In this document: positions 2,972 to 45,821 of the stretch, piece after piece
Layout of the letters: every line of letters begins with the position of its first letter
Numbering within the stretch: the first letter of the stretch is position 1
From: Spirochaetes bacterium GWB1_60_80
GTDB taxonomy: Bacteria > Spirochaetota > Spirochaetia > Treponematales > UBA12059
Assembly (NCBI GenBank): GCA_001829185.1
Contig: MIAR01000046.1
Span: forward strand, 62,001 to 126,000
DNA: 64,000 nucleotides
Direction of reading: 5' to 3'
Program-made: the position numbers and the translations under genes
The notes under the pieces: generated by a model
Seen by the model: only the letters and a program-made list of their open reading frames with translations
The model's database searches: none
What the model was told of the DNA's origin: nothing

Positions 2972-3000
2972 GCGGATGCCAACTGATTACAGCCTACTAG

Positions 3001-3897: not shown

Positions 3898-3979
3898 GCC
3901 AATTCCTCATAAGGTTGAAGCAATCCATAGCGACCTGGCAATGAATCGCCAACCCCTTATGTTTGATCCAGTTGCAGTA

Positions 3980-3985
3980 TACAAT
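3980..3985 (+). promoter_or_regulatory. -10 box of a probable leaderless gene
   Basis: TACAAT lies 6 nt before the ATG at 3992, with TTATGT 17 bp upstream as a weak -35. This spacing would put the transcript start on or next to the start codon. The same arrangement recurs at five other genes in the window. Confidence 0.45.
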
Positions 3986-3991
3986 GGAACC

Positions 3992-4618
3992 ATGATTTTG
4001 CAAACCGGTGAAATGCAAGATTTTTGCGGCTTGATGCTGTTGCCGCCGGGTAACATCCAGCAAGCCATCGTAGCCCTCTGCCGTGGCCTGCAGCAACAAG
4101 GCATCCTTGACTTAACTGGATTCGTGCCGCCTTTTATCCTGCTGGCGCCTTATTGTCCGTCGATTGCGGCTGATATAGTGGAGGCTGAGGCCCGCCGCCT
4201 GGCCTGGCAACTTGATCCACCCACCTGGATGGTTTTAAACGAGCAACTCTATCTATCCTGGCCTGTCCTGCCCCGGCGCTCTACTCCTGAAAAAGTCGAC
4301 CAGGCCCTTGCCTCAATCCGCTCCGGAGCGGCCGGCCGGTCACAAGCGACCATCGACGGGTTCGGCGGCTGGTTTTTGCCGGATGCCCCACCGCATTTAT
4401 TTTGCGGCCGTCTCAAACGCCCGGCGGCCGGGCGGCCGGAAAGCGTTGGAGCCGGCCAGGCTGCTTGGTCAAGCCTGAACCTGGACCAATTACGCTTCCG
4501 CTCCGGGCGCCTGGCTATGGTTGCTTATCATGGCCGATTGCTGCCCTCGCCGGTCTTGAGTTGGCGTATCCGTTTCGGGGCTTACTTAAAAGCTGGCCGA
4601 CAGTTGCCAGAAACTTGA
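3992..4618 (+). CDS. hypothetical protein
   Basis: A 208-residue protein that I do not recognise. The frame is open further upstream (to 3791), but that extension runs antisense into the neighbouring gene. The ATG at 3992 is preferred because a TACAAT box ends 6 nt before it, and codon use upstream is poor. The sequence has no signal peptide, no transmembrane segment and no known catalytic motif. It begins MILQTGEMQDFCGLMLLPPG and contains a hydrophobic ILLAPY strand and a Trp-rich middle. A proline/glycine-rich stretch of about 40 residues precedes the C-terminal strands. It is likely monocistronic. Alternative starts at 3941 or 3959 are possible. Confidence 0.6.
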   Translation: MILQTGEMQDFCGLMLLPPGNIQQAIVALCRGLQQQGILDLTGFVPPFILLAPYCPSIAADIVEAEARRLAWQLDPPTWMVLNEQLYLSWPVLPRRSTPEKVDQALASIRSGAAGRSQATIDGFGGWFLPDAPPHLFCGRLKRPAAGRPESVGAGQAAWSSLNLDQLRFRSGRLAMVAYHGRLLPSPVLSWRIRFGAYLKAGRQLPET

Positions 4619-4644
4619 TCTGTAACGAAACCAATACTGATGCC

Positions 4645-4673
4645 TTTTCAGAGACAGGTCGCTGTGTTATACT
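4645..4673 (+). promoter_or_regulatory. promoter of the outer-membrane/lipoprotein pair
   Basis: TTTTCA, 17-bp spacer, TATACT. It lies 60 nt before the ATG at 4734, which has its own GAGGAA ribosome-binding site, so this is an ordinary leadered promoter. Confidence 0.6.
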
Positions 4674-4733
4674 GCTGGCCGACCGGGAAGATTCAAACCG
4701 CGTTCCCGGTATTCAATACTGCACGAGGAAACA

Positions 4734-5342
4734 ATGCGCCTTCGAATCATGATTCTTTTGTCCGTCGCCTGTCTAGGCTTGCAGTTATCAGCCGAGGATG
4801 CCGCGCCGGCCAGCGATGGCTTGGCCAACACCACCGTCTTCGAGATGTTCCAGCCAGGCGACGCCTTGCTGACCCTGAGCGCCGGAACCAGCCTGGGTAT
4901 CGGCTTCCTCGATGCTACCGGTCAATTCGTGCCTGCCAACCTAGATCCGGCCGTTTCCATCGGCCTTTCGTTATCCATTTTCCTGGACAATCACTGGGCC
5001 TTGGGTGGCGAGTTCAGCGGCCTGTTCTTCACCACCATCGCCGATCGCCAATATTTTTGCGCCCCCTTCGCCGCCCGCCTGACCTATGCCTTCGACCTCG
5101 ATCCGTTTGCCATCAGTCCCTTTGTAGCCCTGGGAATGGCGGTCAACGTCCTCGATGACATGCGGTCCCTCAATCCGCTCGTTCGCGTGGGCTCGGCCTT
5201 CACCTGGCGCTTCAACACCGAGGTCAGCTACGGTCTGAACCTGGATTGCAGCCTCATTCCCGAGATCTATGCCGACCCGGCCTATCAGAGCCATGCCCTG
5301 TTTCTGTTTGGCGCCACCCTCAGTGCAACCTATCATTTGTAA
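4734..5342 (+). CDS. putative outer-membrane beta-barrel protein
   Basis: 202 residues with an N-terminal signal peptide (hydrophobic LLSVACLGLQLSA, likely cleavage after Ala20). Alternating aromatic and polar strands follow, ending in an ATYHL strand, as expected for a small eight-stranded outer-membrane barrel. Glycine-rich strands such as LSAGTSLGIGFLDATG and WALGGEFSGLFF support a barrel rather than a globular enzyme. GAGGAA precedes the ATG. The gene is followed after 15 bp by a lipoprotein gene, and both probably share the promoter at 4645. The localisation is inferred from composition; no specific family is recognised. Confidence 0.7.
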   Translation: MRLRIMILLSVACLGLQLSAEDAAPASDGLANTTVFEMFQPGDALLTLSAGTSLGIGFLDATGQFVPANLDPAVSIGLSLSIFLDNHWALGGEFSGLFFTTIADRQYFCAPFAARLTYAFDLDPFAISPFVALGMAVNVLDDMRSLNPLVRVGSAFTWRFNTEVSYGLNLDCSLIPEIYADPAYQSHALFLFGATLSATYHL

Positions 5343-5357
5343 AGGGATTACCACACT

Positions 5358-6527
5358 ATGAAACGTTCGAAAACGATAGTACTTGCTGGCCTTTTGTTCA
5401 TGCTACTAGCCAGCACGGCCTGCAATCCTGGTTATCTCGGCCTTTTTGCCAGCATCGCCGGTGAAAACGATTTCCGGGTCGATCCAACGGCGGCTTTCAA
5501 GGCCGCCAGCAGCAGCAGCTTGGTTCAGTTTAATGGTAAATATTACGCCGCGCTTAGCCGGCTTTGGGAACGCGCCGAGGCCGATGGCTCGCTCTGGACC
5601 GTCCCGGCTGCCACCAAGGATTACCTGGTCGACTCGCTGGTTGTCAGCGGCGCTACACTATACGCAGCCTTCCGCGACGATGCGGGCCTCTCCGTCGGCG
5701 TACTCAGCACGGTTGACGGTAGTACCTGGGATAGCGCCGCCTTGCCCATCACCCTCGGGGCGGGCCATGAACTGCGCGGCTTGTTGGCCGCCAACAACTT
5801 GGTTCTGGCCTGGTCAGAAAAGTTTACCGCCGCCGCCGGTGATATTCCCGCCAGCAGCGTCTATAGCCTGCACTATCTAGCCGGGGCTGTCTTCACGGCC
5901 GGACCGGCAGACCTGAGTAGCGGTCTGCCCCATTCCCTGATGTGGGATGGAAGCAACTACTGGCTGGGCACCGGTAATGGACTTTACCGTGGCTTGGATG
6001 GCGCTGCCCTGGCGGCCGTCACCCTGGTTGGCGCTGCCGCCACCGCCAGCGATCAATTCAGCAGCCTGGTCTACGACACGGGGCGTTATTTTATGACCAG
6101 CAGCGGCGGCAAGCTTTACTCCGCTACCGATGGCACTACCTGGGCCGTAAGCCAGGGACCGGCTAATACCAGCTTCACGACGGCCTTTGTGATAGACGGT
6201 CTAACAACCGATAGCTACCTGCTGTTGGGCACCCGTACCTACACCGCCTCCAGTACCACCTATGAGGCTGACGGTTACTGGCAGTTTGATATCAGCGACT
6301 GGATTGCCGGTACCGCGTTGACGGAAGCCATCCGCAGCTATGACCCTATCGCTAGCCGCACCAACTTCGATACCAGCATTGGCAACAGTGTAATTGTCCG
6401 ATTGGCGGCCTTCGACACTATTGACGGGAAGAAGCAGTTATTTGCCTGCACCTTAGGTAACGGCCTGTGGTCCAATCAGCGGGTCGACGGCACCTGGGCT
6501 GGCTGGCGCCGCGAAAGTGACCGCTAA
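5358..6527 (+). CDS. putative lipoprotein, beta-propeller-like repeats
   Basis: 389 residues beginning with a lipoprotein signal peptide. The charged MKRSK start and hydrophobic core are followed by LASTAC, so Cys22 should be lipidated. The remainder is rich in short strands with repeated 'SLVQFNGKYYAALS', 'SLVYDTGRYFMTSSGG' and 'SLMWDGSNYWLGTGNGLY' type blades, which resemble sorting or photosynthesis-type propeller repeats that bind ligands at the cell surface. No catalytic residues are visible. It sits 15 bp after the barrel gene. Its stop TAA (6525-6527) is part of the CTAA duplication made by MITE copy 2, so the element inserted exactly at the stop without shortening the protein. Confidence 0.75.
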   Translation: MKRSKTIVLAGLLFMLLASTACNPGYLGLFASIAGENDFRVDPTAAFKAASSSSLVQFNGKYYAALSRLWERAEADGSLWTVPAATKDYLVDSLVVSGATLYAAFRDDAGLSVGVLSTVDGSTWDSAALPITLGAGHELRGLLAANNLVLAWSEKFTAAAGDIPASSVYSLHYLAGAVFTAGPADLSSGLPHSLMWDGSNYWLGTGNGLYRGLDGAALAAVTLVGAAATASDQFSSLVYDTGRYFMTSSGGKLYSATDGTTWAVSQGPANTSFTTAFVIDGLTTDSYLLLGTRTYTASSTTYEADGYWQFDISDWIAGTALTEAIRSYDPIASRTNFDTSIGNSVIVRLAAFDTIDGKKQLFACTLGNGLWSNQRVDGTWAGWRRESDR

Positions 6528-6656
6528 CAGGTTGTTGAAAAAGCCGGTTGCTTTCTCAACAACCTTAACAATTCCTCGCATAGCTTGCGCTATGCTGCGT
6601 AATTGTACCGGCTTTTGAAGTGTTGAAAAGCCGCATTCGCGTTTTTCAACACCCTG
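6528..6656 (+). mobile_element. 129-bp MITE family 1, copy 2
   Basis: Same orientation and structure as copy 1, flanked by perfect CTAA duplications (6524-6527 and 6657-6660). The left duplication contains the TAA stop codon of the lipoprotein gene. It differs from copy 1 at one base of the right-hand hairpin loop (CGCATTCGCG against CGCATCCGCG). Confidence 0.93.
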
Positions 6657-6696
6657 CTAAGGCGTCTTATAGCCGGCGGGGCGGCCTGGCGTCGGC

Positions 6697-8958
6697 ATGA
6701 GCGATGAGCTTTTCAGCCAGGCGGCTGGCGGAAATGAAGCCGCCAGCCCCCTGGCCGACCGGATGCGGCCGCGCAATCTGGACGAGTTCGTTGGCCAACA
6801 CCATATCGTCGGCCCGGGCAGATTGTTGCGCCGGGCCATCCTGCGCGACCGCCTAAGCAGCATCATTCTGTCCGGGCCGCCCGGCACCGGCAAAACGACG
6901 CTGGCGCGGGTAATCGCCAATGCCACCAGCGCCCGTTTCGTGGCCATCAACGCCGTGTTGAGCGGCGTCCAGGCTATCCGCGACACCATCGAGTCCGCCA
7001 AACAAAGCCGCGATCTGTATAACCGAAAAACCATCCTCTTTGTCGACGAGGTCCACCGCTGGAACAAGGCCCAACAGGATGCCCTGCTGCCCTCGGTCGA
7101 AAATGGCACGGTCATCCTGGTCGGCGCGACCACCGAAAACCCGTTCTTTGAAGTCAACAAGGCCTTGGTTTCGCGCTCGCGGGTCTTTCAGCTGCAGGCG
7201 TTGGCCGAAACTGACCTGTTGCAGGCCGCCCGGCAAGCCCTGGCCGACAAGGCCCGCGGTTACGGCCGCTGGCAGATCGAATTTGGCACTGGCGCCCTCG
7301 AACATCTGGTCCACACCGCCGGCGGCGACGCTCGAGCCCTGCTGAACGCCCTGGAACTGGCCATCGAGACCAGTACCGCAGCCTGGCCAGCGCCGGACGG
7401 CGCGACTATTACGGTCAGCCTGGACACAGCCGAGCAAAGCATCCAGAAGCGGGCCATCCTCTACGACAAGGACGGCGACGCCCACTACGATACCATCAGC
7501 GCCTTCATCAAGAGTATCCGCGGTTCCGACCCCGACGCCAGTCTGTACTGGCTGGCCAGGATGCTGTACGCCGGCGAGGATCCCCACTTCATTTTTCGCC
7601 GTCTACTAATCAGCGCCAGCGAGGACATCGGCCTGGCCGACCCGCAGGCCATCGCCACCGTCCAGGCTTGCGCGGCGGCCTTTGACCGGCTGGGCTTGCC
7701 GGAAGGGCAATTCCCGCTGGCCGAAGCCACCCTCTATCTGGCCACGGCCGCGAAATCCAATTCCGGCCTGGCCTTTTTCGCCGCCCTGGCGGCCGTGGAG
7801 GCCGAACAGGCCGAAGTACCGAACCACCTCAAGGACGGCAGCCGCGATAGCCAGGGTCTGGGGCACGGTGCCGGTTACGCCTACCCACACGCCTATCGCG
7901 ACCACTGGGCTAATCAGCAATATTTGCCGGACAGCCTCAAGGGCCTGGTTTTTTATCAGCCGGGTAAACTTGGCTACGAAGCGACCATCCGTGATACTGT
8001 CCTCGAGCGCCGCGATCTGCAATTGGCGGCCATGGCCAGTCCGGCCGATGCGGAGATACTGCCCCTCCCGATGCCAGGACAGCCTGAAAACGGCAAGCGG
8101 AACTGGCGCCAGCGCGTAGCCGGCGGTCAGGCCGCCGCCATGGCCGCTGTCCAGGCTACGCTGTTGGCGTGGGCGGAGTGCCAGCGCCACGAGAACGTTC
8201 TGCTGGTCGCGGCTGACGATGGCGCGCTGGCCAGACAGATATTCCGGGCCTGCCCGGATGGCAGCCTGACTTGCCTAGTGGACCAGCCGGCCCAGCTGGA
8301 GCGCCTGCAGTGGTTGTTCGCCGACTGCGAAGAGATTCTCAAACCCCTACTGCTTCTGCCGGACGAAGGCCGCCGCGCCGTGTCGCCAGGCTGGCTGGTG
8401 GATAAGATTGGCCACCGGCAGATCGAGTGCCTGATAACCCAAGACTGGTTGACTGGCGTGCAACCGGGACGCGTCTTGTCGCGCCAAGCGCCAGACCGAG
8501 ACTCAAACAGTTCAGATTGGGCCAGCTGCTTTCCAGCTGCTCGCCTGATCGGCAGTGAGCGCTTGCCACCAGCCACCGGCATCCTGTCGCTCCATACCGC
8601 CGGACTGTTGCCTGACGACCTGCAGGACCGCTTTCGCCGCCTGGATGACGGATTCTATGCCGCTGAACAGGCCAAGCAGCTGCAAGCTATTACAAACCAG
8701 CTGGCCGAGGCCGGTTATGCCCTGCAACGTCAAGCCGTGGTGGAGCATCCAACCGAACGACGTTTGTCCGTCGATGAAATCGAGAAATGGTTAGGTGCAG
8801 CATCGGCCTGGGGGCGTCATCTGCGCCAAGAGTTGAACGAGGCGGATAGTGCCAGGCTGGCGCAGGCCTTAAAAGAGCTGGTCGGCCGGGATATTGCCTG
8901 GCCACGCTGCTGGTGGTTATACCGAGGCGTCTGTCGGGCTTTGGAAAGCGAAGAATGA
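6697..8958 (+). CDS. rarA: RarA-type AAA+ ATPase fused to a C-terminal methyltransferase-like domain
   Basis: 753 residues. Residues 1-445 are a complete RarA/MgsA replication-recombination ATPase, with Walker A GPPGTGKTT near 59, Walker B ILFVDEVH near 113, sensor GATTENP, and the conserved tetramerisation end GHGAGYAYPHAY...QQYLP. RarA acts at stalled replication forks with SSB. Residues 455-753 are extra. They start with RQRVAGGQAAAMAAVQAT and a VLLVAADDGALARQIF Rossmann-like strand-turn-helix, so a class I methyltransferase-like fold is likely, though no catalytic motif is seen. A RarA/unknown-domain fusion class is known in cyanobacteria and others. The last ten codons and stop lie inside MITE-2 copy A, so the C-terminus is transposon-derived. 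The ribosome-binding site is poor. Confidence 0.88.
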   Translation: MSDELFSQAAGGNEAASPLADRMRPRNLDEFVGQHHIVGPGRLLRRAILRDRLSSIILSGPPGTGKTTLARVIANATSARFVAINAVLSGVQAIRDTIESAKQSRDLYNRKTILFVDEVHRWNKAQQDALLPSVENGTVILVGATTENPFFEVNKALVSRSRVFQLQALAETDLLQAARQALADKARGYGRWQIEFGTGALEHLVHTAGGDARALLNALELAIETSTAAWPAPDGATITVSLDTAEQSIQKRAILYDKDGDAHYDTISAFIKSIRGSDPDASLYWLARMLYAGEDPHFIFRRLLISASEDIGLADPQAIATVQACAAAFDRLGLPEGQFPLAEATLYLATAAKSNSGLAFFAALAAVEAEQAEVPNHLKDGSRDSQGLGHGAGYAYPHAYRDHWANQQYLPDSLKGLVFYQPGKLGYEATIRDTVLERRDLQLAAMASPADAEILPLPMPGQPENGKRNWRQRVAGGQAAAMAAVQATLLAWAECQRHENVLLVAADDGALARQIFRACPDGSLTCLVDQPAQLERLQWLFADCEEILKPLLLLPDEGRRAVSPGWLVDKIGHRQIECLITQDWLTGVQPGRVLSRQAPDRDSNSSDWASCFPAARLIGSERLPPATGILSLHTAGLLPDDLQDRFRRLDDGFYAAEQAKQLQAITNQLAEAGYALQRQAVVEHPTERRLSVDEIEKWLGAASAWGRHLRQELNEADSARLAQALKELVGRDIAWPRCWWLYRGVCRALESEE

Positions 8959-32629: not shown

Positions 32630-32661
32630 CGACAAAATTGTCGTGATCGACAATTTTGTCG
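32630..32661. other. perfect 14-bp inverted repeat with 4-nt loop
   Basis: CGACAAAATTGTCG-TGAT-CGACAATTTTGTCG. It is too AT-rich in the stem and lacks a following U tract, so it is not a standard terminator. Each arm is itself nearly palindromic (CGACAA..TTGTCG), so it may equally be two operator half-sites. It sits between the exonuclease gene and the giant lipoprotein gene. Confidence 0.7.
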
Positions 32662-32845
32662 TGACAAGGATTGGTTTTAACCATCCTGCTTTATCCCATG
32701 ATTGGCATTCGCATTTTATCCGTGCTACAATTCATTTATGAACATATATTTATGTGATTTATAGCAATTCAAATTTTATTATTATCCCTATTCTGTTTTT
32801 GGCATGCTAATTGCTATACAATTGATGAGACATCTGGAGGTGAAT

Positions 32846-35800
32846 ATGAACACGACGAAAACCACTATTGCCAAGCGCGGCGCTTCCCTGGCTCGCGGCT
32901 TGCTGTTGACAGCACTGGTGGTATTCCTGTCCACCTGTGACATCCCCTTCGGCCTGGGTAGCCAGGTTGACACTGGCGCGCCACGGGTAACTATCGATAC
33001 ACCGACCAGAAACGGCTATTATAAAGGCCAGATCGTCATTTCCGGTACGGCAACCGACGATATCGAGGTAGCCCGCGTCCAAGTCATCGTCAAACGCGGC
33101 ACCACCATCGTCAAAGATATCGACGCCGCCATCAGCGGCGAAACCTGGACCTACAGCCTGGATACCGGCGATGGCAGCCTGGACGGCGAACTGACCGTCA
33201 CGGCCAACGCCATCGACGGCTTCGGCAAGGCCACCGAGACCATCATCCCCATTTTTGTGGACAATACGCCGCCGACGGTGCTGGTGACCAGTCCGGTAAC
33301 GCTTAACTCGGTTATGACTGATTACATCGACCTCAAGGGCGAAGTTTACGACCAGTCACCAGTTAGCCTGGTGGAAGTCGAACTGTTGAACCTTGACGGC
33401 ACGGTATTGGCTGGCCCTACCCGGGCCGACGGCACCAATACCTGGGCCATCCGTTTCCTGCTCAAAGACACCATTGCCGGCCTACCCCTACCCGGCGAGG
33501 GTACTAGGGCTTACAAGTATCGGGTATACGTTACCGATGGCTCAGGCAACCGTAACAGCTACTACTTTCACCGCACCGGCATCATCGCCCAGAAAAATTC
33601 GACCGCCCCATTCCCGTCGATGGACGAGATCGGCCGCATTGACCAGAATAATCTGGATGGTGACAGTGGTATCACGGTGGCTGAACTGGAATCAATCCGC
33701 CTGATCAGTATTGCCAATTATGCCGGCTTTACCTATGATCCTGACCCGCAGATCGATTTTCAGTTTACCAATATAGTTCGTATCGCCGACTCGGGCTCGG
33801 CGGAAATCAACCTTCTGGCTCCGAATTCAAAAATCACCGGCCTGATCACGCCACCACCGGAATCCGGCGCCGTCGAAGAAAGCAGTGTTGTCGTCAGGAT
33901 TTACGAGTACCTGACCGAAAACCTGATTACAGAAATCAGCCAGTCCAGCAACCCGGGCAACCTGACCATGTTACCAGTGTCTTCCTCCATCAGTTTCGCC
34001 ATCGCCCTCAAGGATGGCGTTGTCGACCTGGCTTCCAATAAATACAAAATGACTATCAGTGCCGCAACCGATACTGGCATTACTAAAACCAGCAATATGG
34101 AAGAATTTACCATCGACGCCGAAGCGCCGATGTTCGAGGAAAGCAACCTCGATCCGGATTTACCGGATAGTCAATACCAGAACGCCCCCTTCTCCATGCG
34201 CTTCTCAGGCTCGCACTCCACAGCTCTGGTTAAGATCGAAATTTTCCAGTCATTCGAAGGCGGCGCTTTTGTTGCCATACCCGAAATAGATTTACCTGAT
34301 ACTATTTCCTTTGCCGACCAACTAAGCGTCGCCCTGCCATTTGGCACCACCACCAACGGCCGGTACAATTACCGCGCCATCCTGCACACTGTCAGCGGCA
34401 AGACCACTACCATCTTACGTTCAGTTACCTACGATACAGTCGCACCGGTAGTTACTATCAATAGTTTTAACAGTTTCGTGCCATCGACTACCAGTGTAAA
34501 CGGAATGGTTGAATTCTACGCCACCAGTTCGGAAAAGTACGGCATTGAAGAAACCAAATATTATATTACGTTGAATGACAGCGCCCCGGCTTTCGACGCG
34601 GTAGTCGGCGGCAACATAGTGCAAATCCTGGCCAACCAGGAAATTGACACCACCAGCTTGCCTGACAGTTCTACGTATTATTTGTGGGTACTCACCCGTG
34701 ACCTGGCTGGAAACCTGGGGAGCAACACTGTAGATATGTCCTTTGATGTCGACCAATCGACCGACCGGCCGACAATCAATCTGACCAGTCTGGATAACGG
34801 CATCATCCTCGAGACGGCCGTTAACCAGGACGACAACCTGCTGGTGCTCGGCGGCAAAATCTCCGGCAGCATCAGCGATGACGACGGCGTGGCCGCGGCC
34901 TGGCTGGAGATCGACCTCAACCACAATACTAACTTCGACGGCGGCGCGGAGCGCATCGCGCTTACCTTGTCCGGCTTCGGCACCACCAAGACCTTCGACT
35001 ACGCGGTCAGTGGCCTGACCGAAGGCACCTACAGCTTCCGCATCGACGCCACCGATACCAACGCCACCCCGGTTCATAATACTGTTTTCGCTAATCCGGT
35101 CTGGTTCGGCTACGACACCGCCACCCCGACCGTCGTCTTCAACCCGAACGCCACCGACAGCAATCCGGTCGGTCCCTACCGCAATGCCGACTTCACCGTG
35201 CAGGGCACGGTCCAGGATACCGCCGGCATCGCCATGGTCGAGTTCAGCCTCGACAACGGCAGCAGCTGGACGGATCTGGGTATTACCGCCGCCGCTGGCG
35301 CTGTACAACCCTGGACGCGGACCATCGCCGCCGCCGCCAACAACGGCGCCAAGAAACTGATTATCCGCGCCACCGACGACTACGGCCGCACCAACCAGAA
35401 TACCGCCGTGGACGCGACCATCGACACCGTCAACCCGACTGTCGGCCTGACGCCGATCAGCGGCTACATCGACACCTTGCTGAACATCGATGGCACGGCC
35501 GTTGATGCCACCAGCCAACTGGCGGCAACCATGGAATATTGCGTTGACCTCAATGGCAACGCCGTCGCCGATGACGGCTGGACGGCCTTCCCGGCCGGCG
35601 CCAGCTGGTTCAAATCGGGCATCGTCACCTCCGGGCTGGCCGAAGGCGCCGGCAAACTGATTTGGATCAGAATCAGCGACCGGGCCGGCAACCAGGCCAG
35701 CACCAGCGGCACCTTTACGGTCGACCATTTCGCCCCGACCATCGCGGTGGACGTCGCCTTCGACGGCGCCGTCTACCGCAACGGCGAATTTACCATCAAC

Positions 35801-38800
35801 GGCACGGTCACCGACACCAACCTCGGCGCCAGCCCCATCGCCGTCACCGCCACCCGCAACAGCGTCGCCCATGCCCTGACCAATCCGCTAACCAATGGCA
35901 CCACCTGGTCGCGGCTGATTAACCTGGCCGGCGAAGGCAACTATGAAATAACCATCACGGCTACCGACCAAGCCGGCCGCACCAGCACCGAGAAACGGAC
36001 TATCATCGTCGACACCGTCGATCCGACGGTCAGCATCACCAGTTTCGAGTCCTATGCTACCGGCAGCAAGGTCAACGGAACCGTCAGCTTCAGCTCGGTC
36101 AGTTCCGACGCCAACGGCATCGATGATACTAAATATTTTGTCACTACTGCCGCAACCGCTCCGGCCTACGGCGCCACGGTAGATGGCACCATCGTCGTCC
36201 GGATTCTGGCTGGCGCGTCCATTGATACCACCACCTTGACCGACCTGGGCACCTACTACCTATGGGTAGTGGCGCTCGACAAGGCCGGCAACGATGGCGC
36301 CAACGCCACTAGCCTGAGTTTCCAGGTCGACCAGTCAACCGATCGGCCAGTGGTCAGCCTAACCAGCCTGTCGGCCGGTATCATCAGCGAAGGAGCCGTC
36401 GACAAGGACAACAACTTGCTGGTGCTCGGCGGAAAAATCTCCGGCAGCATCACCGACGACGACGGCGTGGCCGAAGCTTGGCTGGACATCGACCTCAATC
36501 ACAACACTACCTTCGACGGCGGCGCGGAGCGTATTGCCCTGACTCTGTCTGGCTTTGGCAAGACCAAAACTTTTGACTACGCCGTTAGCGGTCTGGCCGA
36601 AGGAACCTATAAATTCCGCATCGACGCCCTGGACAGCAACGCCACCGCCATCCATAACACCCCGTTTGCCAATCCGGTCTGGTTTGCTTACGATATTTCC
36701 CTCCCCAGCGTCGTCTTCAACAATCTCGACAGCCTGGGCGTCGCTATCGGCGCCTACCGCAACGCCGATTTTACGGTCGAAGGAACGGTTCAGGATACCT
36801 CGGGCATTACCAAGGTCGAATTCAGTCTGGACAACGGCGGCAACTGGAGCGATCTCAGCCTCAGCACGACTACCAACCTAGCTCTCGATTGGGATTACCC
36901 GATCGACGCCGCGGGCAATAACGGTACGGTCAACCTGATCGTGCGAGCCACCGACCGTTACCTGCGCACCAATCAGAATAGCGCTATTGCCGTTACCGTC
37001 GATACCTTGATTCCGACGATGACCGTGACGGCCTTCGCGCCGACCTATTACGCCGACACTGGCCTAGCCATCAGCGGCACGGCCGTTGACGCCAACAGCG
37101 GTTTGTCGCTGCTGGAGTATTGCGTCGACCTCGATGGCGACGCCACCGCCGACGATGGCTGGTTCGCCCTGAATGGAACCGCCAGCTGGTATAAAAACGA
37201 TATCGCCGCCAATCTCCTGGCTGAGGGCGCTGGCCGCGCAGTTTGGATCCGCGCCACCGACATGGCCGGCAACGTCTCCGTACCGGAACTGCGTACCTTC
37301 ACCGTCGACCATGGCGCTCCCGTCATCGCGGTCGACGCCGCCTTCGACGGCTCGGTCTTCCGTAACGCCGCCTTTACGCTCAACGGCACCGTCAGCGACG
37401 GCAACCTGCCGGCCAGTCCGATCAGCATCACCGCCAAGAAAGACGGCGTGGCCCATACCCTGACCAACCCGATTAGCAACGGCGCCACTTGGTCGCGCTT
37501 GATCAACCTGAACGGCGACGGCGTCTACGTCTTCACCATCACCGCCGTCGACGCCTTCAGCCGCTCCAGCTCGGTAGAACGCACCGTAACGGTGGACAGC
37601 TCGCAGCCGAACCTGGAAATCACCTCGGTACTGCCCATCCTGAGCGGCGCCAACGTCAACGGCGTCATCACCTTGGCCGTCAACACTTCCGACAGCAATG
37701 GCCTGACCGGCGTCAAATACTTCCTGCGCACCGACGCCAGCACGCCAGCTTACGGCGACGCCATCGCCGCGCCAACCAGCGGAAACCTGTCCGCGCCTTA
37801 CTCGGTGCAAATCGACACTACCCTGCTGACTAACAGCACCGCCTACACTCTCTGGGTGATAGCCCGCGACCGGGCCGGCAACGACCGGCTGGTATCCACC
37901 ACCATCAACGTCAACCAGACCTCCGATACGCCCAGCGCAGCCATCGAAAGCCCGTTGTCCACCGAACAGCTCGGCGTCGACCGCCGCCTGCGCGGTTCGT
38001 TTAGCGACGATGACGGCGTGGCCTTGAGCGGCGCGGTTCTCTATATCCGCAAGCTCGGCGCGCCGACCTATACCGCTCGTAACCTTAACGTCACCGGCAG
38101 CGCCGGCCAGCAGGTAGCCTGGACCTACGACGCCACGACCGACGTCACTACCAACGGCGACGGCACCTACCAAGTCTATCTGGTGGTGGCCGATAATGCC
38201 GCCGTCAAGCTGGGCAAGGGTTCGGTCAATTATACGACCGCCGTCCAGACCTTCGTCTACGACGTCAATCCGCCGAACGTTTCGGCCATCTCCGCCGCGC
38301 CGGTGCAAGGCGCTTACGCGGCCGCCGACGTGGTCACCCTGACATGGACCGCTCTTGATAGTTCCGGCATCGCCAGCCAGGACATCGATATCGACGGCGT
38401 CAGCACCGGCCTGGGCGCCATTACCAATCCGTCGGGCGACAACTTCCAGGCCATTTACACCGTGCCCTCCAGTGGTTTGACCTCCGGCAACAAGACTATA
38501 ACCTTGATCACGGCCGACGGCACCGGCCGGGCTACCACCCGCACCCTGACCATCCTGGTGGACATCGACCCGCCGGAGGTGGAAAACGCCTACACCGTCA
38601 ATCCGGCCTTCGTCGGCTCGACGCCTAACGGCGCCTTCGAGTTGAAGGGTACCGCCTACGACAACCGTGGCTTGACCACCGTCGCCGTGGCCTTGTCCAC
38701 CGACGGCACCAATTACGGCTCGTACACCAATGCCACCCTCAGCTCCGGGAACTGGACCTTGGCCATCGCCGATTCAGCCAGCCTGATAGCCGGCGCCGGC

Positions 38801-41800
38801 ACCCTGTACTTCCGGGTCATGGCTACCGACAGCGCCGACAATACCAGCGTGGTGCGCGAATTCAGCCAGGCCGTAAACCAGGCGGCCGATAAACCGGTAG
38901 TCACCCTGATCAGCCCGGTCGACGCCTCCAGCTACGGCACCACGGTCCAGATCTCCGGCACCGCCACCGATGACGACAATCTGGACGGCGTCAGCCCGCT
39001 CGACGCCGACGCCATCGAAATCCAGTACTGGGGACCATTGCCAGCCACTACGCCGACCACGGTCAACCCGACCATTTCCGGTACCGGCAAGAATGCCAAT
39101 TTCAACTACTCGCTTAGCGGATTGGCTTCGGGCGACTTTGTGGTTCAGTCTCGGGCCCGCGACAGCAACAACCTGTGGGGCGACTGGTCGACCCAGGCTG
39201 GTTTCACGGTCAACGCCGGCGCGCCGAACCTCAGCCTGGCCACGGTGGTCGATACTTTCCGCAACAACGCCAGCCTCAGCCTTTCGGGCACCGTATCCGA
39301 CGGCCAGGGCGTCCAGTACGTCCGCGTGCGCATCAATGGCGCCGGCTGGACCGATGCCACCGGTACCAGCGCTTGGGGCGCCGGTAACGTTTCCGACACT
39401 TGGTCGGCTACCATCAACCTCGGCTCGGATGGACTCAAGACCATCGAGATCATCGCCGCCGATATGGGCGACTTCATCGCCAACCGCCAATTGACGACGA
39501 CCCTTGACGCCACGCCGCCGGCCGGCAGCTTCGACACGCAGTTCCGCGACGATCCGTCGGGCTCATACCTGGTCACCACCGCGCTCAACAAAGTGGTGCG
39601 CATCACCGGCACCGTCACCGAACTCAACCTGGCCGATACCAACCCGGTGGAAATCTCCATCGCTGGTGGCGGCTATGTTCCAGTCAGCGGCACCTTCGTC
39701 TGGTCTTATGTCTGGGACACCACCAGCCTGGGCAACGCCGACTATGAACTGCGCCTGCGCATTACCGACAAGGCCGGCAACGTTACCGCCAGCGTGATCA
39801 AAACGGTTACCACCCAGCAGTCAGCCGATGTGCCGCAGATCAGCCAGGCCTTCGTAGCCGCCCCGACCGCCAACGACGCCGGCAATAACCTGCTGGGCGC
39901 CTTGCTTAAGGTTTCCGGTACCATCAGCGACGACGACGGTTTCCTGGCCGGCGCCGTCAATCTCTACCTTGACGGCTCGGCCACCCCGATTGCCGCCACC
40001 AATACCACCGGCACCACGGCCACCTGGGATTATACCTGGGGCAGCCTGGCGCAGGGCCAGCATTACTACAGTATCCAGGCCACCGACCGCAACGGTCAGG
40101 TAGCTAGCCTCGGCCCAACCTACTTCCTGGTCGATACCACCAATCCAGCCCTGACAGTCAATAGCCCCACCGCTGGCGCCAAGGTTCTGGCCGGCACGCT
40201 GACCATCAGCGGCAGCGCCACCGACGCCGGTGGATTGGGCGCCTTGCCCTTGTCCATCAGCCTACGCCATTCCTCCGGAGCCAGCAGCCTGCTACACAAC
40301 CTGAATTACACCCCGACCCTTGCCGGCAACAACTTCAGCCAAAATGTCACCATCGACGGCAACTCTCTGGATGGCACCTTGTTTATCGACTTCGTGCTGA
40401 CTGACCGGGCCGGCAAGCAAAACAGCCTGACCCGCGCCATCACCATCGATACGACAGGGCCGGTTCTCAACCTGACCTATCCAAGTTCAGGCGCCTACAT
40501 GAATGGCTTCGTTTCCTTCACCGGCACCGCCGATGACCTCAATGGCCTGTCCGACGTCACCCTGCAACTGCTGGCCCCCGGCACCTACTTGCCGGTTGCC
40601 ACTATCGCCCGTTCCGGCAGCACCCTCTCCAGTTGGGAATTCCCCTTCAATCTGGAGAGTTATGCCACCGCCACCTACGGCGTGGACGTCAACGCCGATG
40701 GCAAGCTCTTTAAAGTTCTGTTCCGCCTAACCGCCACCGACCAAACCGGCAATGTGGTGGAATACAAAGTTAACAACCCGACACAAAACGACTGGCCTTT
40801 CTTCTACATCGACCTGGACGGCGACAAACCCAGTATCTCGGTTACCCAGCCCAGTAATGGCGCCAACATCGGCGGCATCGTCAACATGTTCGGATCAAGC
40901 TCGGACGATGACGGCCCCGTCATGCGCGTTGAAGTCCAGATCGACTTCAATGGCGACGGCGACTTCACCGACACCCGGGACCTGGATGGCCTCGGCGGTA
41001 TCCAGACCGGCGGCACGCCGGAGAGTTACGTCATCGGCTCGGATACCTTCAACGTCACTGTCGGCGACATCGCCCATCCCTGGGAGGACGAGTCTTCCTG
41101 GTACCCAGTTTCGGTTACCAATAACAGCTGGTCCTTGGAACTAAACGTAACTGGCGATCTGTACTCCGCCAACACCGGGGGAACTGGCTACCTCAACATC
41201 CGTACCCGCAGCCGCGATATGTACGGCTTGCCCAGCGAGATTTCCACCCGTACCATCTTCCTGGACGAGACTTTCCCGCGCATCGAGAACGTGGTTCCGG
41301 ACGACAAATCCTACCAGAGCGGTCATTTCGACTTGACGGTTGACTTTGGCGACAACGTCAACCTGAACCTGGCCGACAAGTCCGCCATCCGCGTTAACAT
41401 CAATAAGTCCGGGTACACCACCTTAGTGCCGGGCGCCAATTCCGGCCCGGGCTGGTCCGGCACCCTGACGGCCGCCTTAGGTACGCCGCAGTACGGCTAT
41501 GACCTAGCCCTGGATATCGACACCGACTTCTTCTTCAACAACGCCTCTGGCATTTTTTACGTGGATCTCTACGTTAAGGATCAGTCGGAATACGTCAACC
41601 AGCGCGGCTACACCTACTATATCGACAACCAAGCGCCGACCAGTGGTTGGTCAGACCGCCCCGGCGCGCCGGATGGCCTCAACCTGCGCAATGGCCAGGT
41701 CCGCATCAACAACAACCCGCTGTATGACTACGCCTTCCTGGAAGGCAACTATCTTGACTCGGGTGTGGTGTCCGGCGTGGACCGCGTCGAAGTCTACTTC

Positions 41801-44800
41801 GTCAAAACAGGGACAGTCCGCCGCATAAAAGGTGCCACTGGAAGCTTGGCTGCCCTGAATACCAGCGCGGTGCAGCTTGAAACCTACGACGAGGGAACCG
41901 GTATCTGGAGCGACCCGCCCCTTGCCACGACCCTGCCCTATGCCCAGCACAGTGATCCGGGTTTCGGCAATGATTACGTCATTCGTATCGATCGTGCTAC
42001 CGAGATGAGTTCCATCTCGACCGGCGCCGATTCCGACCTTGACGGCTTCTTTGAGTTCATGGGGCTCGATGGCGGCGCCCAGCGCTTCCGCGCCTACTTT
42101 AACAGCCAATATCTGCCTGATGGTGAGATCGATATTCACTATGTCGTCTACGATATGGCTGGCAATTCCACCCACTGGGTACGCCGTGGCTTCATCGCCA
42201 ACAACGGCCCGTCCTACAGCCGCATCCGGATCGGCTCCGACTACAACGCCAGCGATACAGTGGTAGATATTGGCGGCTCGGTTACCGAGATTGTCGATTA
42301 CTTCTACCCGACTGAAAGCATCGATCGTTTGGCCGATGACGAACCGGTCACCATCAAGAATGGCAAGCTCTATTTCGCCGTCGAATCAACCGACCCCAAC
42401 GGCACCATCCAGAGTACCGTCATCAATGTGGTCGACCCCAGCCCGGGTAGCAAGGGAACCCTGACCACCTTCAGTGGCGCCACTGGCGGTAACGTGGCCA
42501 TCAATCCGCTTACCCCCATCGCCATCACCATCGGCTCGGCCCAATTCCCGTCGGCAGGCATCTATTACCTAGAAGTAGCCGTCAAGGACAATGATTTGAT
42601 CGCTTCGCGGCGGACGTTGGTGATCAACGTCTTGGCAACCGTTGACACTGATATTCCGACCTTGACGCCGATTGCCATGACTCAAGCCAACGCCATTCCG
42701 CTTGATGCCGGCAATGCCTTGGGGCATCTGGAAATGCAGACCGGAACCGACCCGACAGCCTGGACTGCGATCAGTACGGCTTACGGCAGTGACAATGATC
42801 CGAAGGCCTCCGGTGAAATCAACCTTAAGGGTACGGTCTTCGACAACAACCGCATTACCAGCCTGGACGTTACCGCTGAGGGCGTCGGCACCAACCTGGT
42901 TATCGCCAATTGGGTCGGCGGACAATTGGTCAGCGCTGATCCTGCTCGCCTGACCATCGACAGCCAGGGCCTGACTGAGGCTGGCCATACCGTTACCTTC
43001 ACCTACCGCTGGAATACCGCCTTGGTAACCAATTCAGCCGGTCTGGACAAGACAGTGGCCTTCCGCGCCACCGATGCCGCCACCCTGAACTCGGCGGCCC
43101 ATACCGCCCTGCGCTTTGACGTCGTCCCCTATATATCGGGCATCACTACCACCCAAATCACCAATGGCGGCATCACGGCCAGGAACCTGCGCGCTGTATC
43201 CGGGCGCTATTCAATCAAGACCGGCAGCACCGCCGACTTCGTCACCATCAGTGGCTTCAACCTGCGGCCTATCGCCAATGGCGTCCGGCTGTCTTCGGCC
43301 ACTTACCCCAGCGGCGTCACCGGCACCACCTTGCGCGGCGCGGCCATGACCTTCCAGGCTGCGGCTTCGCCCTACACCACGTTGATGGTAAGCAACACGG
43401 CCACCGCCTCCGGCTACGTGAACGTCATCACCGGTACAGTGGGAGTGCCATTGCCAACGGTCAACAACCTGAACGATAATACCATGGCGCACAACCAGGA
43501 ACCTGACACCAACAATGGCCTAGTCACCTTGCACGACGACCGTTACGCCAACTTCTTCACAGTCACCAACACCGGCATGACGACCAGCCTCTTCCCGCAG
43601 ATGATCATGGATGTCGACACGCCGGTCTTCGGCTACATTCAGGGCAGCGCGGCCAATGACTTGCAGGTGCGGCGTGGTTCCACCTCGGGTGGTTCCATCG
43701 GCTTGGTTCGCATCCTCTCGGCTGACGGCTTGGGCATGGCACGCGACGATTCAGGCTTCTACCACATGGCCAGCGTCAACAACTTCGCCCAGGGGCGCAT
43801 GATCTACCTGTACAACCGCTTCGAGACCCTTTACGCCAACGGTGGCCGTTCCAACCCATACTGGTCGGGCAGCACGGCCGAAAGCTCGACCAATACCGGT
43901 AACAACGCCCTGGACATGGACAGCGTCGATTTCTCCAGCCGCTTGCTCAGCCGCTACCAGAACATCCAGATGATCGCCCGCGGCAACAGCAATACCGCTG
44001 GACAATACAGTCGCGTCTATATGGCTTTCTATGACGATCTTACCGGCCAGGTCATCTTCCGCAACCTGCGCGTCGGCCAGGGAGCTGCCGGCTATGATAT
44101 GTACAACGATGGCGGATTGCGCCGTACCAATTATGCCGAAGCCCCCGGTACCGTAACCGATGACGGACGCAAGATCGTCACTGCAAATGGTAGCCCGCAC
44201 TTGGCCATGGCGGTAACGGACAATAACGTCGTGGTCATCGTCTTCTACAATCAGGTGACCGGTTATCTCAATCTGGTATACTCGGCCACCGTGGCTGGCG
44301 GTGCGACCGCTGCGCCCATCGACCTGGCCAATCCGGTTACGGGCGCGGTCTATTGGTCCACGCCACAGCAGATCGGCCAGCAGTACACCGGCTGGTATCT
44401 GTCGATGGCCATGGAGAACGACGGCAATACCGGAACGCCGGACGCCATCCACCTCGCGGCCTACGATTCGGCCACGGCCGACCTGCGCTACCTCTACCTG
44501 AGCGATTACACCGACGCGACGGCGGATGTCGCCCGTATCGATGCCATGAACTCCGTCGGTATCTACACCGATATCAAGGTTCGGGCTGGCGTGCCGTGGA
44601 TCTCTTATTACAACAATTCGGAAAATGGTACCCGCGATTCGATCCGCTTAACCAGATTCAATGGCGTACCGGCTACTGCGGTAACGGATGGCGCCAATCT
44701 CAACGGAACCGTTACCGGTAACTGGGAATACATGACCGTACCGGTGAACTCTGCGCCCGTCGGCGGCAATACCAAATTCCTGAAAACCAATTTGGGTTTC

Positions 44801-44881
44801 AACTCTTCTGGGCACCCGATCATTGGCTACGCCGCCAGCCAGATCGAGTATACGCGGCTGTTACCGGAAATCACGCCGTAA
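32846..44881 (+). CDS. giant Ig-like-repeat lipoprotein (4011 residues)
   Basis: Start ATG 32846 has GGAGGTGA ideally placed; the frame is open 42 bp upstream. A signal peptide ends in FLSTC, so Cys31 is the lipid anchor. Residues about 40-3400 are a long series (well over 20) of Ig-like beta-sandwich modules. The recurring joint is 'VDT..P', followed by 'I.G.V.D..G' strands. Between them are calcium-type D-x-D-G-D loops (DLDGDATADDGW, DFNGDGDFTDTRDLDG). Residues about 3430-3560 look like an IPT/TIG module, and the last 450 resemble a propeller. Lipid anchoring suggests a very long surface stalk for adhesion or cell-cell contact. The function is inferred; no enzyme motif was seen. The gene's upstream region is AT-rich. 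Confidence 0.9.
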   Translation: MNTTKTTIAKRGASLARGLLLTALVVFLSTCDIPFGLGSQVDTGAPRVTIDTPTRNGYYKGQIVISGTATDDIEVARVQVIVKRGTTIVKDIDAAISGETWTYSLDTGDGSLDGELTVTANAIDGFGKATETIIPIFVDNTPPTVLVTSPVTLNSVMTDYIDLKGEVYDQSPVSLVEVELLNLDGTVLAGPTRADGTNTWAIRFLLKDTIAGLPLPGEGTRAYKYRVYVTDGSGNRNSYYFHRTGIIAQKNSTAPFPSMDEIGRIDQNNLDGDSGITVAELESIRLISIANYAGFTYDPDPQIDFQFTNIVRIADSGSAEINLLAPNSKITGLITPPPESGAVEESSVVVRIYEYLTENLITEISQSSNPGNLTMLPVSSSISFAIALKDGVVDLASNKYKMTISAATDTGITKTSNMEEFTIDAEAPMFEESNLDPDLPDSQYQNAPFSMRFSGSHSTALVKIEIFQSFEGGAFVAIPEIDLPDTISFADQLSVALPFGTTTNGRYNYRAILHTVSGKTTTILRSVTYDTVAPVVTINSFNSFVPSTTSVNGMVEFYATSSEKYGIEETKYYITLNDSAPAFDAVVGGNIVQILANQEIDTTSLPDSSTYYLWVLTRDLAGNLGSNTVDMSFDVDQSTDRPTINLTSLDNGIILETAVNQDDNLLVLGGKISGSISDDDGVAAAWLEIDLNHNTNFDGGAERIALTLSGFGTTKTFDYAVSGLTEGTYSFRIDATDTNATPVHNTVFANPVWFGYDTATPTVVFNPNATDSNPVGPYRNADFTVQGTVQDTAGIAMVEFSLDNGSSWTDLGITAAAGAVQPWTRTIAAAANNGAKKLIIRATDDYGRTNQNTAVDATIDTVNPTVGLTPISGYIDTLLNIDGTAVDATSQLAATMEYCVDLNGNAVADDGWTAFPAGASWFKSGIVTSGLAEGAGKLIWIRISDRAGNQASTSGTFTVDHFAPTIAVDVAFDGAVYRNGEFTINGTVTDTNLGASPIAVTATRNSVAHALTNPLTNGTTWSRLINLAGEGNYEITITATDQAGRTSTEKRTIIVDTVDPTVSITSFESYATGSKVNGTVSFSSVSSDANGIDDTKYFVTTAATAPAYGATVDGTIVVRILAGASIDTTTLTDLGTYYLWVVALDKAGNDGANATSLSFQVDQSTDRPVVSLTSLSAGIISEGAVDKDNNLLVLGGKISGSITDDDGVAEAWLDIDLNHNTTFDGGAERIALTLSGFGKTKTFDYAVSGLAEGTYKFRIDALDSNATAIHNTPFANPVWFAYDISLPSVVFNNLDSLGVAIGAYRNADFTVEGTVQDTSGITKVEFSLDNGGNWSDLSLSTTTNLALDWDYPIDAAGNNGTVNLIVRATDRYLRTNQNSAIAVTVDTLIPTMTVTAFAPTYYADTGLAISGTAVDANSGLSLLEYCVDLDGDATADDGWFALNGTASWYKNDIAANLLAEGAGRAVWIRATDMAGNVSVPELRTFTVDHGAPVIAVDAAFDGSVFRNAAFTLNGTVSDGNLPASPISITAKKDGVAHTLTNPISNGATWSRLINLNGDGVYVFTITAVDAFSRSSSVERTVTVDSSQPNLEITSVLPILSGANVNGVITLAVNTSDSNGLTGVKYFLRTDASTPAYGDAIAAPTSGNLSAPYSVQIDTTLLTNSTAYTLWVIARDRAGNDRLVSTTINVNQTSDTPSAAIESPLSTEQLGVDRRLRGSFSDDDGVALSGAVLYIRKLGAPTYTARNLNVTGSAGQQVAWTYDATTDVTTNGDGTYQVYLVVADNAAVKLGKGSVNYTTAVQTFVYDVNPPNVSAISAAPVQGAYAAADVVTLTWTALDSSGIASQDIDIDGVSTGLGAITNPSGDNFQAIYTVPSSGLTSGNKTITLITADGTGRATTRTLTILVDIDPPEVENAYTVNPAFVGSTPNGAFELKGTAYDNRGLTTVAVALSTDGTNYGSYTNATLSSGNWTLAIADSASLIAGAGTLYFRVMATDSADNTSVVREFSQAVNQAADKPVVTLISPVDASSYGTTVQISGTATDDDNLDGVSPLDADAIEIQYWGPLPATTPTTVNPTISGTGKNANFNYSLSGLASGDFVVQSRARDSNNLWGDWSTQAGFTVNAGAPNLSLATVVDTFRNNASLSLSGTVSDGQGVQYVRVRINGAGWTDATGTSAWGAGNVSDTWSATINLGSDGLKTIEIIAADMGDFIANRQLTTTLDATPPAGSFDTQFRDDPSGSYLVTTALNKVVRITGTVTELNLADTNPVEISIAGGGYVPVSGTFVWSYVWDTTSLGNADYELRLRITDKAGNVTASVIKTVTTQQSADVPQISQAFVAAPTANDAGNNLLGALLKVSGTISDDDGFLAGAVNLYLDGSATPIAATNTTGTTATWDYTWGSLAQGQHYYSIQATDRNGQVASLGPTYFLVDTTNPALTVNSPTAGAKVLAGTLTISGSATDAGGLGALPLSISLRHSSGASSLLHNLNYTPTLAGNNFSQNVTIDGNSLDGTLFIDFVLTDRAGKQNSLTRAITIDTTGPVLNLTYPSSGAYMNGFVSFTGTADDLNGLSDVTLQLLAPGTYLPVATIARSGSTLSSWEFPFNLESYATATYGVDVNADGKLFKVLFRLTATDQTGNVVEYKVNNPTQNDWPFFYIDLDGDKPSISVTQPSNGANIGGIVNMFGSSSDDDGPVMRVEVQIDFNGDGDFTDTRDLDGLGGIQTGGTPESYVIGSDTFNVTVGDIAHPWEDESSWYPVSVTNNSWSLELNVTGDLYSANTGGTGYLNIRTRSRDMYGLPSEISTRTIFLDETFPRIENVVPDDKSYQSGHFDLTVDFGDNVNLNLADKSAIRVNINKSGYTTLVPGANSGPGWSGTLTAALGTPQYGYDLALDIDTDFFFNNASGIFYVDLYVKDQSEYVNQRGYTYYIDNQAPTSGWSDRPGAPDGLNLRNGQVRINNNPLYDYAFLEGNYLDSGVVSGVDRVEVYFVKTGTVRRIKGATGSLAALNTSAVQLETYDEGTGIWSDPPLATTLPYAQHSDPGFGNDYVIRIDRATEMSSISTGADSDLDGFFEFMGLDGGAQRFRAYFNSQYLPDGEIDIHYVVYDMAGNSTHWVRRGFIANNGPSYSRIRIGSDYNASDTVVDIGGSVTEIVDYFYPTESIDRLADDEPVTIKNGKLYFAVESTDPNGTIQSTVINVVDPSPGSKGTLTTFSGATGGNVAINPLTPIAITIGSAQFPSAGIYYLEVAVKDNDLIASRRTLVINVLATVDTDIPTLTPIAMTQANAIPLDAGNALGHLEMQTGTDPTAWTAISTAYGSDNDPKASGEINLKGTVFDNNRITSLDVTAEGVGTNLVIANWVGGQLVSADPARLTIDSQGLTEAGHTVTFTYRWNTALVTNSAGLDKTVAFRATDAATLNSAAHTALRFDVVPYISGITTTQITNGGITARNLRAVSGRYSIKTGSTADFVTISGFNLRPIANGVRLSSATYPSGVTGTTLRGAAMTFQAAASPYTTLMVSNTATASGYVNVITGTVGVPLPTVNNLNDNTMAHNQEPDTNNGLVTLHDDRYANFFTVTNTGMTTSLFPQMIMDVDTPVFGYIQGSAANDLQVRRGSTSGGSIGLVRILSADGLGMARDDSGFYHMASVNNFAQGRMIYLYNRFETLYANGGRSNPYWSGSTAESSTNTGNNALDMDSVDFSSRLLSRYQNIQMIARGNSNTAGQYSRVYMAFYDDLTGQVIFRNLRVGQGAAGYDMYNDGGLRRTNYAEAPGTVTDDGRKIVTANGSPHLAMAVTDNNVVVIVFYNQVTGYLNLVYSATVAGGATAAPIDLANPVTGAVYWSTPQQIGQQYTGWYLSMAMENDGNTGTPDAIHLAAYDSATADLRYLYLSDYTDATADVARIDAMNSVGIYTDIKVRAGVPWISYYNNSENGTRDSIRLTRFNGVPATAVTDGANLNGTVTGNWEYMTVPVNSAPVGGNTKFLKTNLGFNSSGHPIIGYAASQIEYTRLLPEITP
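34433..38050 (+). repeat. 1.58-kb higher-order repeat inside the giant gene
   Basis: A block of about 526-528 codons starting at the VDT/DTV..P joint recurs at 34433, 36011 and 37595. The first two copies are complete; the third is partial and fades near 38050. Long stretches are near-identical in DNA (for example CTGGTGCTCGGCGG at both 34840 and 36420), so the duplication is fairly recent compared with single Ig modules. Confidence 0.85.
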
Positions 44882-44975: not shown

Positions 44976-45821
44976 ATGAAACGCATATTAATCGTCCTGT
45001 CCTTGTTTTCTTTGCTAATGGGGTCTTGCGCTGCGCCGCTTCGGCGTGCCCACCGAGACTGGCGGCAAACCTGGACTACAGCCGCGCAGTTGGGGCAACT
45101 ACCGGTTTCTGCGGAGCGTGCCGACTATATCGGAGCGATCGAGGTAGCCTCCAGCTACCTGACCAGCCAGCTGCCTGAAGCCGCCGTTTTAGCGCCGGCC
45201 TTCTTGGACCCCGCCTCGGCCCCCACCACCCAAGCCCTGACCGCCTGGCATGAGGACAAGGCGGAGTGGTTGATCGACCAGGCCAGCCGCCGTCCCTTCC
45301 AGTTATTCTTTGACCTGGAGCGCCTGGCCAGCGCCCGGCGACGCCTGGAGGCCAAGGGCTACCGGGTAGAGGTCTTCCCGGTGGAGCGGCTAGTTCCCTG
45401 GTTGGGGCTGGAAACGCCTTTGCGGCTGGACTGGCAACAGCGTCCCTTGGCCTACAGCGCCGAAACACTGGCCTACAATCAGCTGTTGGATGCCGACGCC
45501 TCCGTCGACCGCGAGGCTATAGTCGAGGCCCTGGTCCGCGACTTCCTGATCCAGCGTTATGGCGCCCACAGCTTGGAACTAGAAGCCTTCCTGGCTCGCC
45601 GGGCCGATGAACGCAGTCTGCAGTACCTGGTTGGTCAGCTGGCCACGGCCTTGGCCGGTGGCAGCGATACTGTCACCCGCAGCAGCTATCTGTCAGCCTG
45701 GTTGGACGATTACCGGCAGAATTATTCCAGCCGCTTCCAGACCAATCTGTACCGCGATATCGACGAAGCTTGGCTGACGCCGGGACGCATTGTGCTCATT
45801 ACCGAAGGCTGGCGTCCGTAG
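44976..45821 (+). CDS. putative lipoprotein of unknown function
   Basis: 281 residues with a lipoprotein signal peptide (SLFSLLMGSC; Cys18). The remainder is a mostly helical globular domain containing AIEVASSYLTSQLPEA, LTAWHEDKAEWLIDQ and DLERLASARRRLEAKGYRVEVFPVERL. It has no recognisable catalytic motif. GGAGGGG precedes the ATG. It follows the giant-lipoprotein terminator and precedes ettA with its own -10, so it is probably transcribed alone. Confidence 0.75.
   Translation: MKRILIVLSLFSLLMGSCAAPLRRAHRDWRQTWTTAAQLGQLPVSAERADYIGAIEVASSYLTSQLPEAAVLAPAFLDPASAPTTQALTAWHEDKAEWLIDQASRRPFQLFFDLERLASARRRLEAKGYRVEVFPVERLVPWLGLETPLRLDWQQRPLAYSAETLAYNQLLDADASVDREAIVEALVRDFLIQRYGAHSLELEAFLARRADERSLQYLVGQLATALAGGSDTVTRSSYLSAWLDDYRQNYSSRFQTNLYRDIDEAWLTPGRIVLITEGWRP

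Follow-up and report, generated by a model that had tools for sequence, protein, structure and literature searches.

What might a spirochaete do with a single lipoprotein of 4011 residues that consists largely of Ig repeats, and what does the far end of such a chain carry? The gene (32846 to 44881, + strand) lies in a 64,000-nt stretch of DNA, which was analysed as a whole and is called the window here. Its frame is open throughout, as the preliminary description of one gene of about 12 kb had it. The ORF listing puts the start at 32804; the ATG at 32846 is the better start because an SD sequence, GGAGGTG at 32836-32842, sits just upstream. A pseudogene reading was rejected, since the one TAA counted in genome G007 is the end of its ORF, past which the alignment runs, and the gene is unbroken. 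The AT-rich stretch upstream contains an inverted repeat (32630-32661) with 14-bp arms, CGACAAAATTGTCG and CGACAATTTTGTCG, around a spacer of 4; it is the sole such site in the window at two or fewer mismatches, and no terminator-like T run was found at it. The neighbours in the window are otherwise housekeeping genes, for phosphoglucomutase, an exonuclease, and an ABC-F protein.

Anchor, stalk, and core of the giant protein

Residues 1-31 form the lipoprotein signal, which ends in the lipobox (...VVFLST-C31) with the Cys31 codon at 32936-32938. Cys31 occupies alignment position 26 and opens the family motif C..GLGxxVDxxxP, in which the Cys and the LG are invariant (Table 1), and this supports the predicted lipid anchor that had been proposed for the stalk. 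The residue at position +2 after the lipobox Cys varies among the aligned relatives (D, N, E, R, or K), and the sequence here does not reveal how spirochaete lipoproteins are sorted.

The stalk was also correctly described as Ig repeats: Pfam assigns 11 stretches to Big_7 (E 6e-34) and five to Big_13, with no Big_2 among the 10 Pfam families at E<=1. Linker spacing gives a module period of about 96-106 residues, and we estimate about 33 Ig modules over some 3400 residues. A PDB sequence search with the whole protein gave no match at E<=0.001. Loops of the calcium type, which had been noticed between the modules, exceed chance expectation, with five strict loops (D-x-[DN]-x-[DN]-G) against 0.7 in shuffled sequences (none of 500 shuffles reaches five) and 13 looser loops lacking the G against 6.7 (9 of 500 shuffles reach 13). 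None of the strict loops falls within the duplicated block, and orthologues also have the ones at residues 2700 and 3062. A core query of 1740 residues (37496-42715) matches at full length in four of 58 genomes including the window's own, the others being G007 (62% identity), G013 (56%), and G028 (54%), and only partial matches were obtained elsewhere. The N-terminal half of the protein is poorly conserved, at 24-36% identity.

Table 1. Features of the giant gene and its downstream neighbour, in window coordinates
Feature	Position	Strand	Remark
Signal peptide and lipobox	32846..32938	+	Cys and LG unchanged across all 14 aligned relatives
Repeat block A, residues 488-1014	34307..35887	+	59.8% amino acid identity to block B
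Repeat block B, residues 1015-1541	35888..37468	+	59.8% amino acid identity to block A
Conserved Ig-module core, residues 1551-3281	37496..42688	+	Full-length matches to core query
Calcium-type loop DFNGDGDFTD, residue 2700	40943..40972	+	Also present in G013 and G028
Calcium-type loop DSDLDGFFEF, residue 3062	42029..42058	+	Recurs in G007, G013, and G028
C-terminal tip: Ig, IPT-like (about 43103-43453), and propeller (about 43544-44872) parts	42689..44878	+	AlphaFold2 model
Small lipoprotein, 281 aa, ..LLMGSC	44976..45821	+	94 bp downstream of giant gene

Family distribution and conflicting segment trees

Among 390 phylum genomes, the N-terminal profile (E<=1e-30) matches 92, all in the window's own class, and the tip profile (E<=1e-20) matches 106, five of them outside that class. 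All 92 genomes with the N-terminal profile also match the tip profile, where 25 would be expected by chance, which indicates that anchor and tip belong together. The 66 named loci with a tip relative are nearly all from Treponema (T. bryantii B25 and T. ruminis RU1, both cultured, among them) or other spirochaetes. With Brucepastera placed in Treponematales, the window probably comes from that order. Neither the giant gene nor the Ig-barrel gene described below occurs in G032, a 1.1-Mb genome from the same order. Judged by these profiles, the giant protein is a member of a widespread spirochaete family, which is apparently undescribed so far; no description was found in a literature search that most subscription journals lay outside. 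Absence from the same-genus genome G001 was considered and rejected as an assembly gap, with the upstream exonuclease running to the end of contig C55 and contig C78 beginning inside the ABC-F gene. Some further loci were noted in passing: G007 has two giant lipoproteins in tandem with a small lipoprotein between them (L072), G054 has three (L037/L152), one with an N-terminal match spanning an in-frame TAA, and one tip relative (L115) comes from a contig with the label Clostridiales bacterium (RUI571), which may be a mislabelled or contaminated MAG.

The family does not follow a simple tree. Comparison windows 1 to 1126 of the G013 protein are 54-75% identical to same-genus G008, whereas windows 1626 to 3001 are 45-73% identical to G028, G000 (the window's own genome), and G007 and at most 36% to G008, and the G013 tip is 60-76% identical to G028 and 34-64% to G006. 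Segment trees of seven or eight proteins, picked by having fetched sequence, match these window-by-window identities and conflict at 92-100% support: the N-terminal part joins G008 with G013 (100), the core joins G013 with G028 (93) alongside G000 and G007 and places G008 with G006 (100), and the tip joins G006, G013, and G028 (100) and places G008 with G009/G014 (100). Threonyl-tRNA synthetase identities to the window's genome are 79% for G008, 79% for G013, 82% for G028, and 75% for G007, so the core pattern departs from that of this gene. It seems that N-terminal stalk, core, and tip were exchanged between lineages, or that ancient variants were sorted by recombination. A chimeric MAG could produce apparent mosaicism in one genome, while the conflict here involves three (G013, G006, and G008). 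Cassette exchange of this kind offers a way to predict changes in specificity.

The propeller tip and the associated genes

The preliminary description had assigned the last 570 residues to an IPT-like and a propeller-like part and proposed structure prediction as a check. An AlphaFold2 model of residues 3282-4011, built with 36 sequences, bears this out with good confidence (mean pLDDT 83.2, pTM 0.86), with an Ig domain followed by an IPT-like sandwich and then a propeller, the last two covering about 585 residues. The best 18 VIA matches of the model are all Photorhabdus PLL/PHL lectins (Z 23.8-25.5), which fit model residues ~302-728 with an rmsd of about 3.0 over about 295 residues at 6-8% identity; other propellers follow at Z 23.2 and below, many of them WD and others at Z 19-22, and the fold is also similar to glycoside hydrolases/lyases 5muk, 5mum, and 7esk. 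PLL/PHL lectins have seven blades with sugar sites between them (PMC5584973). The tip propeller is thus predicted to be seven-bladed, with these lectins as its nearest solved folds. The likeness lies in the fold, known for the tip from the predicted model; unlike the giant protein, PLL/PHL lectins are soluble, without anchor or stalk, and there is no sequence-level match. A lectin-like fold is not the same as sugar binding.

A profile of the 36 tips gave no match to PDB sequences at E<=1, PLL/PHL included, and no Pfam family reaches E 0.01 in the 36 tips; the IPT label draws on weak TIG matches in relatives only, which at 14.8 and 11.9 bits stay under the cutoff of 20.9. Some quarter of the sampled phylum genomes hold one family that joins a lipid anchor to a binding-type domain without a Pfam family. 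The Foldseek list for the tip includes sialidases (NanA) as well as PLL lectins. Sialidases carry Asp-boxes with the pattern S/T-x-D-x-G-x-T/S-W/F, and a sialidase tip was rejected because no Asp-box was found in the window's tip, even with a relaxed pattern. As a side observation, the tips of G013 (L029 6756-8855) and G006 (L031 6116-8215) contain inserts similar to biotin/lipoyl-type domains (PF00364 at 17.6 and 19.5 bits, short of the cutoff of 22.1), which are absent from the window's tip.

A second large protein is widespread; it has Ig repeats and a conserved C-terminal segment with F as the last residue. The query for it (L039) matches 42 of 58 genomes at E<=1e-3, some perhaps through Ig modules alone, and loci reaching the query C-terminus were tabulated in 41 genomes. 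In the window's own genome it is a 2397-residue frame (G000:C23:90722-97912), unlinked to the giant gene on C46, with a match to the OmpL47-type domain NF047446 (74.1 bits, cutoff 40). Linkage was counted over the 35 genomes whose N-terminal match (E<=1e-25) begins close to profile position 1; this left out G011 and G029 (5e-16), the latter also having the barrel and giant genes adjacent. In 17 of the 34 genomes with both genes, the two lie within 10 kb on the same strand, and in the remaining 17 they are not neighbours. The barrel gene comes first in ten linked pairs, with 85-174 bp between match edges in eight and about 6 kb in two, and lies about 1.1 kb downstream of the giant gene in seven, the far ends of some giant genes being estimated from ORF length. 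The last ~150 residues of a barrel relative are modelled as eight long strands ending in F (pLDDT 71.3, pTM 0.44). Among the Foldseek matches listed for this model, only the Ig part was matched, with SiiE modules among the top ones and Bacteroides surface glycan-binding proteins among others, so the prediction of an outer-membrane barrel, held with moderate confidence, draws on the eight strands and the C-terminal F. The Ig-barrel protein is probably a partner of the giant lipoprotein. The gap between the two genes in G009, G014, and G017 contains a frame of about 360-390 residues with a hydrophobic segment (L041 1665-2828, L040 2107-3264, and L092 6366-7445, respectively); these frames, and L087 in G009, are unrelated to the small lipoprotein, and L087 has no Pfam match.

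Relatives of the 281-aa lipoprotein lie directly downstream of a giant gene with the same core in G007, G013, and G028, the only other genomes of the 58 with the full core. A profile of the four small lipoproteins gave strong matches in five of 58 genomes (E 1e-93 to 1e-147), the fifth being G055, where the gene lies near a contig start, before the barrel gene of that genome; after a gap to E 1e-22 come weaker matches, including unlinked canonical copies. PF10023 (cutoff 25 bits) is matched by the downstream relatives in G007 (36.2), G013 (27.0), and G028 (67.2) and not by the window's 281-aa lipoprotein. HExxH is absent from all five downstream copies and present in all four unlinked canonical paralogues read (G000, G007, G013, and G028), which indicates that an aminopeptidase-like lipoprotein lost its metal site and travels with the core. 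It is probably a dedicated accessory for this core type with a helper role, and it offers a clear case of an enzyme apparently made accessory. A canonical PF10023-type aminopeptidase with HESAH (L153, G000:C46:253-1110) shares a contig with its inactive paralogue and lies outside the window, about 61 kb upstream of the window start.

Candidate functions and the age of the internal repeat

Known spirochaete proteins share parts of this architecture. PMC7821625 describes Leptospira LigA and LigB as lipid-anchored surface proteins of tandem Ig-like domains that both bind calcium, with Big_2 domains and, in LigB, 12 Ig domains plus a Big_5-containing C-terminal extension. The giant protein resembles them as a spirochaete lipoprotein of tandem Ig-like domains with a predicted N-terminal anchor, but differs from that description in its Big_7/Big_13 modules, their larger number, the propeller tip, and the two associated genes. 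According to PMC11444514, BPP43_05035 of Brachyspira pilosicoli is a surface lipoprotein of 463 aa with a six-bladed propeller that attaches through N-glycans, lacks an Ig stalk, and is reported to be unique to that species, whereas the propeller studied here stands on ~3400 residues of Ig stalk and fits seven-bladed lectins. Lig and BPP43_05035 show that spirochaetes do use Ig-chain and propeller lipoproteins at the surface. Leptospira OmpL47 is an outer-membrane protein reported to be surface exposed (PMC2698987), and through NF047446 the Ig-barrel partner shares its repeat type. The giant protein itself scores 41.3 bits against the OmpL47 equivalog NF047441, below the cutoff of 250, and unlike OmpL47 (~39 kDa) it is of giant size and lipid-anchored. 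Giant calcium-binding adhesins such as SiiE also have a very long Ig-repeat chain; adhesins of this type leave the cell through type I systems and carry their secretion signal at the C-terminus, whereas the giant protein has an N-terminal lipoprotein signal.

We lean slightly towards a surface fibre for adhesion or glycan capture with a glycan-binding tip. The secreted lipoprotein would be anchored to the outer membrane through lipidated Cys31, its Ig chain would extend, over roughly 130 nm if straight, and its free end would present the IPT-like domain and the propeller to a ligand, most likely a glycan; the tip could plausibly be displayed outside the cell. The Ig-barrel protein would act as a partner, the inactive-aminopeptidase lipoprotein would serve as an accessory for this core type, and swapping of stalk, core, and tip as cassettes over evolution would change reach and binding specificity. 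The anatomy, the family, the gene linkage, the loss of HExxH, and the mosaicism come from the computations, and surface location, ligand binding, partnership, and the helper role are inferred from them. A further proposal, which we put forward tentatively and well short of an even chance, is that in spirochaetes of this class these proteins make up an undescribed three-part surface apparatus of Ig-barrel, giant fibre with a new family of glycan-binding propellers, and, in some lineages, a non-catalytic former aminopeptidase as helper, whose cassettes are swapped between lineages with changes in reach and specificity. Ig-repeat surface adhesins are known; literature searches did not find a giant lipid-anchored chain with a new propeller family, an Ig-barrel protein, an inactive aminopeptidase, and cassette exchange. 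To our knowledge, few treponeme surface ligands are known, and with the anchor and tip family the attachment of gut, rumen, and digester spirochaetes becomes directly testable.

The giant protein might instead be a scaffold-type protein with its tip inside the periplasm. No surface export route was identified and the other neighbours in the window are housekeeping genes, the Ig chain of the barrel partner could face either side of the membrane, and an aminopeptidase-like lipoprotein gave rise to the downstream one. However, a chain of ~33 modules far exceeds the width of the periplasm, a poorly conserved N-terminal half and an exchanged tip are expected of an exposed variable protein rather than of a scaffold, and the family is missing from G032 and from most phylum genomes sampled, which makes a periplasmic scaffold rather unlikely compared with a surface fibre. 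A glycan-harvesting receptor, in which propeller and Ig modules capture polysaccharide for degradation and uptake in an anaerobic gut or digester and not for attachment, would agree with the hydrolase/lyase likeness of the propeller, with the Bacteroides matches of the partner, and with the many gut or rumen treponemes among the relatives. We consider it quite unlikely, as no carbohydrate-active enzyme or SusC-like transporter was found among the ten neighbours tested, and the tips have neither a Pfam family in any of the 36 nor, in the window, Asp-boxes.

The period of the internal repeat, about 527 residues, and its DNA offsets of 1578 and then 1584 bp had been given correctly. In blastn, 34748-35961 and 36326-37545 align over 1230 columns with 70.5% identity (E 7e-163), and residues ~1575-1726 hold a degenerate third copy (32-38% identity). 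The repeat had also been taken as a substrate for homologous recombination that could vary the stalk by about 500 residues, and this did not stand, because the longest exact tract common to blocks A and B is 21 bp, identity at their third codon positions is 53%, and where the residue is identical the codon also agrees in 61% of cases, with codon usage predicting 52%, so that synonymous sites are near saturation. Lengths do differ widely across the family: ORFs at the 148 places with an N-terminal match have a median of 3364 aa (range 270-7564, some ended by contig ends), and 100 of them reach 3000 residues or more. Invariant length in relatives, which the preliminary description had named as a possible refutation of its variable stalk, is thus not seen family-wide, whereas the orthologue in G028, from another family of the order, is collinear and nearly equal (3924 aa, with all alignment gaps shorter than 25 residues). 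A stalk whose 527-residue blocks recombine to vary its length within a species is therefore highly improbable, despite the two similar blocks and the degenerate third. Among the relatives examined (G028, G013, and G008), no close match to blocks A and B was found, their counterparts being 25-35% identical. Short exact tracts and codon agreement near expectation indicate that the duplication is old and kept at the protein level rather than a fresh, recombination-ready repeat.
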